DNA of 64,000 nt from a virus: positions 1-64,000 of the IMG/VR virus record IMGVR_UViG_3300024239_000161; one strand, 5' to 3'. This document shows positions 21,039 to 43,789 of this stretch, piece after piece. Under the pieces are notes generated by a model. The model was given only the letters and a program-made list of their open reading frames with translations, was not told the DNA's origin and made no database searches. The position numbers and the translations under genes were made by a program. The first letter of the stretch is position 1, and each line of letters opens with the position of its first letter.

Positions 21039-21067
21039 TTGATATATACGATGAAAGGGTCTATAAT
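21039..21067 (+). promoter_or_regulatory. Sigma70-type promoter of the riboswitch operon
   Basis: TTGATA at 21039-21044, 17-nt spacer, TATAAT at 21062-21067. Predicted transcription start near 21074, right at the 5' end of the aptamer. Confidence 0.85.
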
Positions 21068-21074
21068 GACCTTA

Positions 21075-21172
21075 CGTTCATCTGGAAAACCAGACGGAAG
21101 TAAGCCGACGCGGAACGGAACGTTCATTCGCTATTCTCAAATAGCGGACGCAAACGCCGACTGAAGGAACGC
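21075..21172 (+). ncRNA. Glutamine riboswitch (glnA / downstream-peptide family)
   Basis: P1 is CGTTC (21075-21079) paired with GAACG (21167-21171). P2 is TCTGG-aaaa-CCAGA (21081-21094). The conserved GGAAGTAAG follows at 21096-21104, and CTGAAG at 21161-21166 lies just before the P1 3' strand. This order and the two conserved blocks match the known L-glutamine aptamers of cyanobacteria. P3 is unusually long: an inner hairpin CGCTATT-ctca-AATAGCG (21129-21146) is extended by CGTT/GACG and a distal CG-GCG/CGCCG stem. The repeated GAACG blocks at 21113 and 21118 allow alternative pairings. The downstream gene is a small peptide, as expected for this riboswitch class. Confidence 0.85.
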
Positions 21173-21195
21173 TCTTTAACTTAAAAACTAAGGAG
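21172..21195 (+). promoter_or_regulatory. Possible ribosome-site-masking hairpin
   Basis: CTCTTTA (21172-21178) can pair with TAAGGAG (21189-21195), which includes the ribosome site of the downstream ORF; 7 bp, one G-U, 10-nt loop. It abuts the P1 strand of the aptamer, so ligand-stabilised P1 could compete with or affect it. Confidence 0.5.
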
Positions 21196-21203
21196 AAAAC
21201 CTA

Positions 21204-21341
21204 ATGTCTAAAGTCGTATACAGAGGCGTAGAGTATGATACTCAAAAGCGTCTTGAGTATCAACAGCAAATGATGCAACAACCCCAACAATACAACGAAA
21301 CCTATCGTGGTGTTAAGTTTGTAAAGGAGGGTCATAAGTGA
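21204..21341 (+). CDS. Riboswitch-controlled small peptide with YRG motifs
   Basis: 45 residues starting MSKVVYRGVEYD and ending TYRGVKFVKEGHK, with a Gln-rich middle. Paired YRGV motifs resemble DUF4278-type cyanobacterial peptides, the usual downstream peptide of this riboswitch class. AAGGAG lies 8 nt before the ATG. Related host peptides are linked to nitrogen metabolism; here a role in redirecting host nitrogen or glutamine use during infection is inferred. It overlaps the next ORF at ATGA-type junction. Confidence 0.8.
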   Translation: MSKVVYRGVEYDTQKRLEYQQQMMQQPQQYNETYRGVKFVKEGHK

Positions 21342-21436
21342 TGAAAAAACTCAATGTGCTTCAACTCATTAAAGAGCAAAAGCAAAAAGAGCAACGTCGT
21401 CACCAAGCACTGCTAGCAAACGCAGGAGCAAAGTGA
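21341..21436 (+). CDS. Micro-ORF 2 of the riboswitch operon
   Basis: 31 residues, a charged Lys/Gln/Arg helix (LIKEQKQKEQRRHQALLAN). It starts on the last base of the previous stop codon; AAGGAGG lies inside the end of that gene at a suitable distance. No family recognised. The tight coupling on both sides argues it is translated. Confidence 0.6.
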   Translation: MKKLNVLQLIKEQKQKEQRRHQALLANAGAK

Positions 21437-21519
21437 TGCTAATCATCGCACAAATTTCAGTTGCGTCTGTCGCATTTATTACTTTACTTTCATTGTATAT
21501 TCAGTGGTTGTCTAAGTAA
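21436..21519 (+). CDS. Micro-ORF 3: single-pass membrane peptide
   Basis: 27 residues, almost wholly one hydrophobic helix (IIAQISVASVAFITLLSLYI) with a short WLSK tail. It starts on the last base of the previous stop, with AGGAG 10 nt upstream. It resembles in size the tiny thylakoid or inner-membrane subunits, but no family can be named. Followed 11 nt later by a terminator. Confidence 0.6.
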   Translation: MLIIAQISVASVAFITLLSLYIQWLSK

Positions 21520-21530
21520 AAAAAAATTCA

Positions 21531-21558
21531 AAGGAGGGATTGATTCCCTCCTTTTTTT
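21531..21558 (+). terminator. Intrinsic terminator of the riboswitch operon
   Basis: AAGGAGGGA and TCCCTCCTT form a perfect 9-bp stem with a 5-nt loop, followed by TTTTT. It closes the transcription unit. Confidence 0.95.
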
Positions 21559-21763: not shown

Positions 21764-21929
21764 AACATCAAGAGCAAAGCAACTTGTAAAACTTCTTGAA
21801 AGATTAATCAAACAAGATCATCTTTATACTGATGACAAAATTCAAGAAATGAAAGCACAACTTCGTACAGTAAAAGAGCAAATTAAAGAGTTAGAAGCAC
21901 AAACATCAAAAGGATTTGGAAAGAAATGA
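21756..21929 (+). CDS. Small coiled-coil hypothetical protein
   Basis: 57 residues, mostly heptad-like helix (KLLERLIKQ, EMKAQLRTVKEQIKELEAQ). ATGA overlap with thyX and 8-nt overlap upstream indicate coupled translation. No known family. Confidence 0.6.
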   Translation: MTETSRAKQLVKLLERLIKQDHLYTDDKIQEMKAQLRTVKEQIKELEAQTSKGFGKK

Positions 21930-22678
21930 AACCTATTAAAGCAAAAGACCTTCTTGAACTTGATAAAAGACTTGAAGTTGTTAGACTTCAATGTTATCCG
22001 ATTCCGGAACAAGTTATTTGGCAGGCAGGAAAAGGTGATTATTCCGAAGTACCAATTCACGAAGTTAAGGTCCCCAGTCCTCAGGAATGTGGTGAGTGGA
22101 TTGTAGAGCAACTACTCGCAAATGAAAGAGGTCACTGGGGTCCATTAGAGCATCCCGGAATTACTTTTTCGGTATCTGGTTTTGTTCATAATGTAATCGT
22201 TCAGGCAAGAACTCATCGAATTGGCACTTCTTGGGATGTTCAGTCGCAACGATATACTGGAAAGAGAGTTGTAAAGGTTGCTAAGCGTGAACTTGATGTC
22301 GAAGATGTCTTCTATGTGCGTCCTGAGGGATTCTACACCAATCGTAAGGGTAAGAAGTATGAATGGACCGAAGAGAACCGACAACGCAAGTTAGAGCGCA
22401 TTCTGAGTGAGTGTGAGGAGTATGCTGAGTATTATGAGCAAGGTATGTGTGAAGAGCATATTCGTGATTATCTTCCTCAGGCAATTCGGCAAAACTTTGT
22501 AGTTTCATTTAACCTTCGTTCTGTTCTTCACTTTATGGACCTTCGTTCTAAACTTGATGCTCAAATTGAGATTCAAGCACTTTGTGACGCAATTGCTCCA
22601 GAACTTCAAAAGTGGTCTCCAAATGTTTGGAAGTATTATGAAGAAAAGAGACTACATCGTGCTCGTTTGAGTCCCTAA
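21926..22678 (+). CDS. thyX: Flavin-dependent thymidylate synthase ThyX
   Basis: 250 residues, normal length for the family. The ThyX motif RHRxxS-x-S-x-R appears as RTHRIGTSWDVQSQRYTG near residue 95, and HWGPLEHPGITFSVSG and FNLRSVLHFMDLRSKLDAQIEIQ complete the FAD/dUMP site. It makes dTMP from dUMP with FAD, NADPH and methylene-tetrahydrofolate, supplying thymidine for AT-rich phage DNA. Starts on the previous stop (ATGA). Widespread in marine cyanophages, replacing the T4 thymidylate synthase type. Confidence 0.95.
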   Translation: MKPIKAKDLLELDKRLEVVRLQCYPIPEQVIWQAGKGDYSEVPIHEVKVPSPQECGEWIVEQLLANERGHWGPLEHPGITFSVSGFVHNVIVQARTHRIGTSWDVQSQRYTGKRVVKVAKRELDVEDVFYVRPEGFYTNRKGKKYEWTEENRQRKLERILSECEEYAEYYEQGMCEEHIRDYLPQAIRQNFVVSFNLRSVLHFMDLRSKLDAQIEIQALCDAIAPELQKWSPNVWKYYEEKRLHRARLSP

Positions 22679-22714: not shown

Positions 22715-23425
22715 ATGGTTTCACACTACATTTACAAAATAACAAATATTCTTAATGAGCAGATTTATATTGGTAAATCCAAAAGACCAAAAGTAAGATG
22801 GAGACAGCATAAATCTCATTCAAAAGTAAGAAATACAAAATTATATTATGCTATGAGAAAGTATGGTGTTGAAAATTTTGTATTTGAAATTATAGAAGAG
22901 TGTTTTGAAAATAAAGTAAATGAAAGAGAAATGTATTATGTCTCTCTTTTGAAACCATATTATAATATGACTAATGGAGGCGACGGTGGTGGATTTCTCA
23001 ATAAAAAGCACGGGGATAGATGGAAACAAGCAATTAAACAAAGCAATTCTAAAAAAGTTGCTTGTTATGATTTGGATGGAAATCTAGTCAATGTTTATGA
23101 AAGTTGTAGAGATGCTTCTTATGATGTTTTTGGTAAAGATTGTAAAGGCATTGGTGCCGTGATAAGAGGAGAATATCAAACTTGTGGTGGGTTTCAATGG
23201 AAAACTTTTGAAAATCAACCACTATCAAAAATATCTTCATATAAAAGAACCTCTCATAAAATTAAAAAAATAGGAAAATATGATACTAATGGAAATTTAA
23301 TTGAAGTTTATGATAGTATGACCATTGCCGCAGAAAAAAATAACGCCTCAACTTCCAAAATAACTTTAGTTTGTCAAAATAAAAGGAAAAAACATAAAGG
23401 ATATGTTTGGAAGTATGTGGTATAA
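22715..23425 (+). CDS. GIY-YIG homing endonuclease with NUMOD repeats
   Basis: 236 residues. Residues 4-95 form the GIY-YIG nuclease: YIYKITN and IYIGKS, catalytic Arg in KVRWRQHK, and a Glu in VNEREMYYV, ending MTNGGDGG. Two NUMOD1-like DNA-binding repeats follow (ACYDLDGNLVNVYESCRDAS and KYDTNGNLIEVYDSMTIAA), each ending near a G-[FY]-x-WK motif. This is a free-standing homing nuclease inserted between thyX and the phoH unit, with its own late promoter. Confidence 0.85.
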   Translation: MVSHYIYKITNILNEQIYIGKSKRPKVRWRQHKSHSKVRNTKLYYAMRKYGVENFVFEIIEECFENKVNEREMYYVSLLKPYYNMTNGGDGGGFLNKKHGDRWKQAIKQSNSKKVACYDLDGNLVNVYESCRDASYDVFGKDCKGIGAVIRGEYQTCGGFQWKTFENQPLSKISSYKRTSHKIKKIGKYDTNGNLIEVYDSMTIAAEKNNASTSKITLVCQNKRKKHKGYVWKYVV

Positions 23426-43069: not shown

Positions 43070-43157
43070 GGAAGTGAGACTTGGTAGTCAGAGGAGTCTT
43101 ATAAACTCTTTCCGCCAGATTAGCGGCTTTGAGGTGGTTCGAATCCACCCACTTCTA
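43070..43157 (+). tRNA. Class II-like tRNA, anticodon uncertain (TAT by canonical loop)
   Basis: Acceptor GGAAGTG pairs with CACTTCT (7 bp, one G-U); T-arm GGTGG-TTCGAAT-CCACC is perfect; discriminator A. A long variable arm CCGC-cagatta-GCGG places it in class II (Leu/Ser/Tyr). The anticodon stem GGAGT/ACTCT leaves the 7-nt loop CTTATAA, giving TAT (Ile) with U33. The D arm is short. The combination is odd, so it may be degenerate. Confidence 0.65.
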
Positions 43158-43173
43158 CTTACATATATCATTT

Positions 43174-43181
43174 TATAAATA
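43174..43181 (+). promoter_or_regulatory. Late promoter motif TATAAATA
   Basis: 36 nt upstream of the HNH gene, between arms ACATATA (43161) and TATATGT (43184). Confidence 0.55.
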
Positions 43182-43209
43182 GGTATATGTATAACTTCAT
43201 AACACCATA

Positions 43210-43641
43210 ATGTATACTACTATCACTACCTGTCAGAGTTGCGGATGCGACATTCTAAATGAGAGAATGACGAAAGGGCGACTAAAAAAATGGTGTAGTG
43301 AATCTTGTAGAGCAAAATGGAGATATGAAAACGATCCTGTAATTAAAGATAGGAACACTTATACCGAACAAAAAGCAAGAGGTTATTCCAATAAATGGAA
43401 AGCACTTCAATACAAAGGTAGTAAGTGTCAAACTTGTGGCGAAAGTAGACCAGCAACTCTATGTTTTCATCATAGAGACCCATCAGAAAAATCGTTTAAT
43501 CTTGATGGGAGAACTTTTGCTAATAGAAAATGGAATTCTGTTAAGGAAGAAGTTGATAAATGCGACCTTCTTTGCCATAACTGCCATCATATGTTACACT
43601 ATGGTGATAGTTGGGAAGAATTCCTAAACGAGCAGGTTTAG
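43210..43641 (+). CDS. HNH homing endonuclease
   Basis: 143 residues. An N-terminal zinc-ribbon-like part (CQSCGCDILNERM, WCSESCRAKWRYE) and the HNH core: CQTCGESRPATLCFHHRDPSE and LLCHNCHHMLHYGDSWEEF, with the His-His pair and structural Cys pairs. Its last codons and stop (43632-43641) lie within the following tRNA. It sits between two tRNA-like genes, a frequent target of homing genes. Confidence 0.85.
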   Translation: MYTTITTCQSCGCDILNERMTKGRLKKWCSESCRAKWRYENDPVIKDRNTYTEQKARGYSNKWKALQYKGSKCQTCGESRPATLCFHHRDPSEKSFNLDGRTFANRKWNSVKEEVDKCDLLCHNCHHMLHYGDSWEEFLNEQV

Positions 43642-43705
43642 CTCTCTGGTTGAAAGCAGCGAACTCATAATTCGCCTAAGGTGGGTTCGATCCCCACAAC
43701 CTGCA
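43632..43705 (+). tRNA. tRNA with CAT anticodon (Met or Ile2)
   Basis: Acceptor GCAGGTT/AACCTGC, anticodon arm GCGAA-CTCATAA-TTCGC (anticodon CAT), T-arm GTGGG-TTCGATC-CCCAC, discriminator A. Met versus lysidine-modified Ile cannot be told from sequence. The HNH stop codon lies in its first 10 nt. Confidence 0.9.
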
Positions 43706-43709
43706 CCTT

Positions 43710-43783
43710 GCCCGCATAATCCAACAGGCAGAGATAGGGAGCTTAAAACTCCTCCAGTGTCGGTTCGAATCCGACTGCGGGTA
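43710..43783 (+). tRNA. tRNA with TAA anticodon but class I variable loop
   Basis: Acceptor GCCCGCA/TGCGGGT, anticodon arm GGGAG-CTTAAAA-CTCCT (anticodon TAA, reads UUA), variable loop only CCAGT, T-arm GTCGG-TTCGAAT-CCGAC. Leu tRNAs normally have a long variable arm, so the identity is unusual. Confidence 0.85.
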
Positions 43784-43789
43784 TTAAAA

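Follow-up and report, generated by a model that had tools for sequence, protein, structure and literature searches.

A putative nested glutamine riboswitch upstream of a small peptide gene in T4-like cyanophages

The locus and its outer glutamine-I site

The window is a stretch of viral DNA of 64,000 nucleotides (IMG/VR record IMGVR_UViG_3300024239_000161, positions 1 to 64,000). Conserved sequences of the glutamine-I (glnA) aptamer can be read at 21073-21172, at the head of a small unit that runs from a sigma-70-type promoter through ORFs of 45, 32 and 28 codons to a terminator-like hairpin, see Table 1. The first two peptides, YRG and LIKxQ..KE..H.AQ, are separate ORFs in the window (21204-21436) and are fused in several phages (L006, L009, L010).

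Table 1. Coordinates of the features at the locus
Feature	Position	Strand	Remarks
Sigma-70-type promoter TTGATA-17-TATAAT	21039-21067	+	11 of 12 consensus matches; ends 7 nt 5' of CGTTC
Outer P1, 5' strand CGUUC	21075-21079	+	At or beside the inferred transcript 5' end
Outer P2 hairpin UCUGG AAAA CCAGA	21081-21094	+	Double changes in relatives at 4 of 4 tested pairs
G equivalent to G23	21097	+	Long-range pair with C21172 (C60)
Loop E, 5' strand AAGUA, outer junction	21098-21102	+	Loop E in glutamine-I (PMC5393176, PMC6698751)
Shared P3, 5' strand AGCCGACG	21103-21110	+	Pairing tested across relatives
Inner P1' hairpin GAACG-GAA-CGUUC, circularly permuted P1 of the inner site	21113-21125	+	Strands kept in relatives
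Inner P2' hairpin UUCGCUAUU CUCA AAUAGCGGA	21127-21148	+	ORF at the same position in most relatives
Inner junction strand CGCAAA	21149-21154	+	G22/C23 equivalents 21150-21151; C21151 faces G21118
Shared P3, 3' strand CGCCGACU	21155-21162	+	Pairing tested across relatives
Loop E 3' strand GAA (21163-21165), outer P1 3' strand GAACG (21167-21171), C60 (21172)	21163-21172	+	
Candidate expression platform	21172-21195	+	CUCUUUA (21172-21178) pairs with SD UAAGGAG (21189-21195); hairpin uses C60
45-aa YRG peptide, DUF4278-like, phrog_5049	21204-21341	+	SD upstream; PF14105 19.1 bits, cut-off 25.3
32-aa ORF (..LNVLQLIKEQKQKEQRRHQALL..), probably same transcript	21338-21436	+	Similar sequence fused to the YRG peptide in other phages
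28-aa hydrophobic ORF, probably same transcript	21433-21519	+	
Terminator-like hairpin closing the small unit	21530-21554	+	

The position of the promoter supports an earlier note on this DNA, which had placed the RNA 5' end at P1. Among the matches listed, 110 of the 133 related loci with a recognisable -10 box are alike, the box ending 7-8 nt 5' of CGTTCA. Upstream of the leaders of S-ShM2, Syn33 and ACG-2014b, a TATAAATA-like sequence, which resembles a T4 late promoter and has a hairpin behind it, replaces the sigma-70 promoter. The S-TIM5 leader is also without a clear sigma-70 box.

The P1 stem, P2 hairpin, GGAAGTAAG block (21096-21104) and CTGAAGGAACG closure (21161-21171) that the same note had named are all present at 21075-21171, and its relation of the leader to the glutamine-I aptamer holds for the outer site. 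Here, P1 (CGUUC/GAACG), P2 and the CGUUCA and GGAACG blocks are all found, and loop E is represented by AAGUA opposite GAA at the base of P3. G21097 and C21172 correspond to G23 and C60, which pair in the solved aptamer when the ligand is bound (PMC5393176). However, P3 is not closed by a simple loop; it leads into an inner junction.

A scan of the window against Rfam at gathering cut-offs gave nothing at 21073-21172. At a relaxed threshold, two half-matches to RF01739 appear, 21075-21117 (26.3 bits, E 1e-3) and 21119-21175 (29.1 bits, E 2e-4), both below the cut-off of 35 bits. For glutamine-II (RF01704), which forms a pseudoknot with a downstream P2 strand, the window scores 13.0 bits against an Rfam cut-off of 33. 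Likewise, the Rfam scan of eight classic phage records found none of their nested leaders. A dedicated covariance model (R2), built from 18 relatives of the S=C class only and excluding the window and its whole class, matches the 64-kb window exactly once, at 21073-21172 with 82.6 bits (E 8e-19), which lies far beyond chance. With a sister model (R1), nested leaders reach 90-102 bits, and single or tandem aptamers stay at or below 41. The covariance check named in the earlier note thus divides: no Rfam match rises above threshold, which that note would have taken as evidence against a glutamine riboswitch, while the dedicated model recognises the leader. The miss and the split halves are explained by a two-in-one architecture, as the RNA fits neither a single aptamer with an elongated P3 nor two ordinary aptamers in tandem.

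A shared P3 and a permuted inner junction

More than 200 relatives of the leader were gathered from phage records, viral contigs and protein searches. The sequence patterns used to find them contain conserved blocks, so part of the conservation reflects the selection of the sample. Two units can be written in register, unit 1 as CGTTCA-P2-ACGSAAGTA-AGCCGACx-CGGAACG and unit 2 as CGTTCA-P2'-ACGCAAA-x'GCCGACT-RAAGGAACG. Loop E is split, with one strand in unit 1 and the other in unit 2, so a complete glutamine-I aptamer only results if the start of unit 1 pairs with the end of unit 2. Judged by this comparison, the leader is a nested double junction, in which P3 is common to a canonical glutamine-I site on the outside and a circularly permuted site on the inside. 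Both the base-pairing architecture and the position ahead of a DUF4278-like peptide emerge from the comparison of the relatives.

Between the P3 strands, the inner site reads GGAACG-GAN-CGUUCA-P2'-ACGCAAA. This is a circular permutation of the same core, with the P1 strands in reverse order and a short loop joining them. The inner site keeps the C1:G59 and G2:C58 pairs and G22, and these nucleotides, which contact the ligand in the solved aptamers (PMC6698751), occur in both sites of the window. It could be argued that the leader is a single glutamine-I aptamer and that the hairpin-rich insertion merely spaces P3. The outer site alone holds every defining element, and the homologue in S-CREM1 is annotated in this way (99 nt, 44 bits; PMC9964418). 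We find this rather unlikely, as the inner part retains CGUUCA, GGAACGG and ACGCAA including the ligand-contacting positions, and its long-range pair is C-G in 208 of 212 relatives among the matches listed. It has also lost both strands of loop E together. Further, when contigs were chosen by their 3' half only, inspection found the inner CGGAACG and CGTTCA in all but one genuine case, so the search pattern alone does not account for the conservation of the inner P1' strands. The much longer P3 of one aptamer, as the leader had been described in the earlier note, therefore gives way to a second, permuted junction.

The fold could also be conserved but no longer sense glutamine, acting instead as a phage translational operator or an RNA-stability element, for example one bound by a phage protein. 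The glutamine-binding reading comes from sequence comparison, the phage class shows either C23-G60 or G23-C60, and in some relatives that share the leader a late-type sequence seems to stand upstream in place of the sigma-70 promoter. Against this, the leader conserves the pocket nucleotides described in the two solved glutamine riboswitches, and the peptide that follows it is of the family found behind host glutamine-II riboswitches. We regard a loss of sensing as unlikely.

The nested pairing is best seen in the long-range 23-60 pair. Read in the nested way it is C-G in 169 and G-C in 43 relatives and broken in none of the 212 among the matches listed. If each unit closes on itself, as two ordinary glutamine-I aptamers in tandem would, it is broken in 11 of 36 aligned sequences on each side. 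This covariation without exception rules against simple tandem pairing. In a tree of the inner ORFs the pair switches seven times, both sides together; three of these switches fall on supported branches, which is too few for significance alone.

P3 also covaries between the units. Among 44 distinct strand pairs from the relatives its pairing is 0.80, compared with 0.71+-0.013 for shuffled partners. In the 36 ORF-free relatives, position x pairs with x' as U-A in 10, G-C in 9 and A-U in 7. A short class of relatives pairs AGUCG perfectly with CGACU, and rare variants change in concert (GGACGG/CCGCCC, AGUCA/UGACU and GGCUAACG/CGUUGAGCU). The P3 of the window class has two mismatches, A-C and C-A. 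Over the same 36 ORF-free relatives, the nested structure leaves 94.8% of the cells paired, and its covariation is 0.282 vs 0.086+-0.007 for shuffled and at most 0.075 for slid alignments. RNAalifold, given no instruction, pairs the P1s in the nested way and does not predict P3. Both P1s are invariant across the aligned sequences and so give no covariation of their own.

A tandem has some points in its favour. Rfam splits the leader into two halves, true tandems exist among viral contigs (L042, L046 and L051, for instance), and the P1 strands are interchangeable in sequence. The constrained energy is also slightly better for the tandem (-24.8) than for the nested form (-22.9), in Vienna energies that ignore loop E, the long-range pair and the ligand. 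The unconstrained minimum (-28.0) retains both nested P1s, and the nested P3 does not come first. However, unit 1 is without the GAA strand of loop E and unit 2 without AGUA, so that neither is complete alone. Together with the pairing data above, this makes a tandem very unlikely.

Genes in the hairpins of relatives and the spread of the leader

The window carries plain P2 and P2' hairpins, and its P2' hairpin is present in one copy only when searched for as a mobile repeat within the window. Among the 216 cores listed, 47 have two plain hairpins like the window; the rest carry ORFs or are incomplete or unresolved. The ORFs lie in the inner P2' only in 106 cores, in the outer P2 only in 23 and in both in 33. 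These embedded ORFs have about 50-75 codons; their start codons lie within or next to the 5' strand of the stem, and they end at or past its 3' strand.

The inner ORFs begin 3-5 nt past CGTTCA, and 102 of 110 among the matches listed stop at the UGA or UAA of C-URA-AGGAACG. Their last codons (GAC GCA AAC GAC or GAC GCA AAA GCC GAC) are at the same time the junction and a P3 strand. The A of the inner start codon lies within a continuous stem in 129 of 141 cases listed. The outer ORFs often finish ..GRK-stop with the UAA of ACGCAAGUAAG; the stop codons of others lie shortly ahead of the closing strand, inside it or close to it. No Shine-Dalgarno sequence precedes the outer ORFs in any of 56 cases, and their inferred leader is about 12 nt long.

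Both ORFs and stems appear to be maintained. A pN/pS of 0.34 for the inner ORFs (627 pairs) and of 0.33 for the outer ORFs (271 pairs) points to purifying selection. The stems that enclose inner ORFs have 5.84 of 7 positions paired, compared with 4.83+-0.10 for shuffled partners, and those around outer ORFs 5.72 compared with 5.20+-0.13. The inner proteins belong to phrog_504, the outer to phrog_6471 and others. Neither the inner nor the outer proteins have a Pfam match, and each family has two invariant cysteines. An AlphaFold model of one inner protein is a two-helix hairpin (pLDDT 78).

The hairpins and ORFs look as if they were exchangeable modules. A hairpin of the form TTCGCTATT-N4-AATAGCGAA is found in P2 or P2' of different phages, at 21127-21148 in the window and in the outer P2 of L004, L145, L187 and L210. 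One small protein family (MLSLALIFFSHVP..LRCED..) lies in the outer hairpin of L151 and in the inner hairpin of L145, L232 and L238. That the repeated flanks are a DNA-level cassette site that attracts small genes, with incidental RNA structure, would fit different ORF families at the same two sites and one family in either (outer in L151, inner in L145 and L232), but is hardly credible, as P2, P2', P3 and the 23-60 pair all show compensatory changes, which concern RNA pairing, and 47 listed relatives, the window included, are without any ORF.

The nested architecture is present in all 26 named cyanophage records examined, 15 fetched by protein matches and 11 by DNA, where it surrounds the inner ORF or stands in its place. 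In syn9, gp196 is the outer ORF, gp197 the inner ORF and gp198 lies downstream. The window's form, with hairpins only, is also that of S-PM2, Bellamy, S-CREM1, P-TIM68 and AG-345-P14. A protein search found the inner protein encoded in 311 phage records. With model R1, no nested form was found in 151 host-family genomes; the single match has the size of an ordinary aptamer (55 nt, 32.5 bits). Within these collections the nested architecture is thus, by sequence, restricted to phages. A pattern scan of a genome collection returned mostly chance matches of the 16-base pattern. One contig with the nested motif (L295), from a Rhodospirillaceae MAG, was considered as a cellular case and is most likely viral DNA that was binned with the MAG. 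Viral contigs also hold glutamine-I aptamers in ordinary head-to-tail tandem, often only about 6-10 nt apart and with a loop E in each aptamer (L042, 6879-6982; L046, L051, L053, L062, L071, L077, L113, L126).

Single glutamine-II aptamers are found in 42 of 61 host-family genomes. At the eight host loci read, the aptamer is followed by a YRG (DUF4278) peptide of one to three repeats, and one such peptide of 55 aa matches DUF4278 at 41.2 bits. These loci link the Downstream-peptide ORFs to a Pfam family. Among the matches listed, 193 of 203 nested phage leaders have a YRG-type peptide downstream. The phage cassette therefore parallels that of the host with a different aptamer, since a YRG peptide stands behind both. 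The expectation in the earlier note of a small peptide of the Downstream-peptide kind agrees with the DUF4278-like ORF behind the leader and with the host loci. PirA, a small PII-binding protein, was dropped as an identity for the peptide; it is absent from marine picocyanobacteria and DUF4278 is unmentioned in its description (PMC8092223).

Proposed working and relation to known riboswitches

We consider it probable that the leader acts as a glutamine riboswitch and that its nested build is new, with two sites joined through a shared P3 and the inner one circularly permuted. In the outer glutamine-I junction, P1 would join the 5' end to the far 3' strand, together with P2, loop E and the G23-C60 pair. 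P3 would continue into the permuted junction, consisting of P1' with a 3-nt loop, P2', CGCAAA and a 23-60 pair of its own, with no loop E. Glutamine would stabilise the outer site, in which C21172 is drawn into the 23-60 pair, and may do the same at the inner site. The ligand-bound fold should compete with a CUCUUUA/UAAGGAG hairpin that would hide the ribosome site, as C21172 is needed by both.

Because the anti-SD hairpin uses the C60 that the ligand-bound aptamer needs, an ON switch is suggested, i.e., more YRG peptide may be made when glutamine is plentiful. This direction would match that of the host glutamine-II riboswitch, which is described as ON (PMC6698751). In the predicted downstream fold, 27 of 32 distinct leaders of the S=G class have position 60 paired, and it is only in this class that most relatives show a clear anti-SD hairpin. 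Of the marine S=C leaders, some have a clear anti-SD hairpin, and as a group they fold no better than shuffled sequences.

In the ORF-bearing relatives, the starts and ends of the ORFs lie in or beside the P2 strands, so translating the hairpin genes and folding the sensor would exclude each other. It can be speculated, and we do so with some reserve, that many T4-like cyanophages carry a two-site sensor with hairpin genes, in which ribosome passage and glutamine-stabilised folding exclude each other, so that a single RNA couples the nitrogen state of the host to at least three small phage proteins.

That a cyanophage should have a glutamine riboswitch is no novelty. Such riboswitches occur in Melnitz-like and other marine phages (PMC9004378), and a 99-nt element homologous to ours is annotated as glnA in S-CREM1 (PMC9964418). 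One published survey reported no riboswitches in either pelagimyophages or cyanomyophages (PMC7029224). The S-CREM1 element (164232-164330) is a direct homologue with the same nested sequence; its annotation is that of one simple glnA riboswitch, without the architecture or the gene-hosting relatives. It is the fused, gene-hosting form that appears to be new. In open-licence PMC papers we found no report of the shared-P3 permuted form, and nothing relevant on ORFs within aptamers or on circularly permuted glutamine riboswitches.

The outer site has everything that marks glutamine-I (glnA, RF01739): the three-way junction, CGUUCA, loop E (AGUA/GAA), G23-C60 and GGAACG. Unlike RF01739, its P3 enters a second, permuted junction, P2 and P2' can hold genes, and the window falls below the Rfam cut-off. 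With glutamine-II (Downstream-peptide, RF01704) it shares the position ahead of a DUF4278/YRG small peptide, the same family as in host cyanobacteria. The C-G long-range pair is also common to both, found here in the inner site and, among marine relatives, in the outer one as well; the glutamine-II equivalent of G23-C60 is C19-G41 (PMC6698751). However, the host form is a single pseudoknot aptamer, whereas a true P3 helix and loop E belong to the phage form. Riboswitches of the glnA kind in tandem have been reported (PMC2864571), and like these the phage leader has two predicted binding cores. Unlike them, the cores share one helix and one is permuted, so that they are not two consecutive complete aptamers.

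If the proposed reading is right, this is a new riboswitch topology, with two ligand sites connected by a shared helix and one of them circularly permuted. Genes living inside a riboswitch aptamer, as in the relatives, would then be the first case known to us, and two abundant hypothetical families, phrog_504 and phrog_6471, would gain a regulatory context. Group I and II introns are also structured RNAs with a gene in a peripheral loop whose flanks still pair, as in the ORF-bearing leaders; they differ in being ribozymes with endonuclease or maturase ORFs, while the ORFs in the phage leaders encode small proteins with two cysteines. The nested leader is carried by many lytic cyanophages, including the laboratory models syn9, S-PM2 and Syn19. 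It makes testable whether a phage reads host glutamine during infection, and how translation competes with folding on a single RNA.

Elsewhere in the window, a GIY-YIG homing endonuclease with NUMOD domains (22715-23425) lies directly 3' of the thymidylate synthase gene thyX (21926-22678), and three tRNA genes (Ile-TAT, Met-CAT and Leu-TAA), two of them nearly adjacent, are found at 43070-43784.
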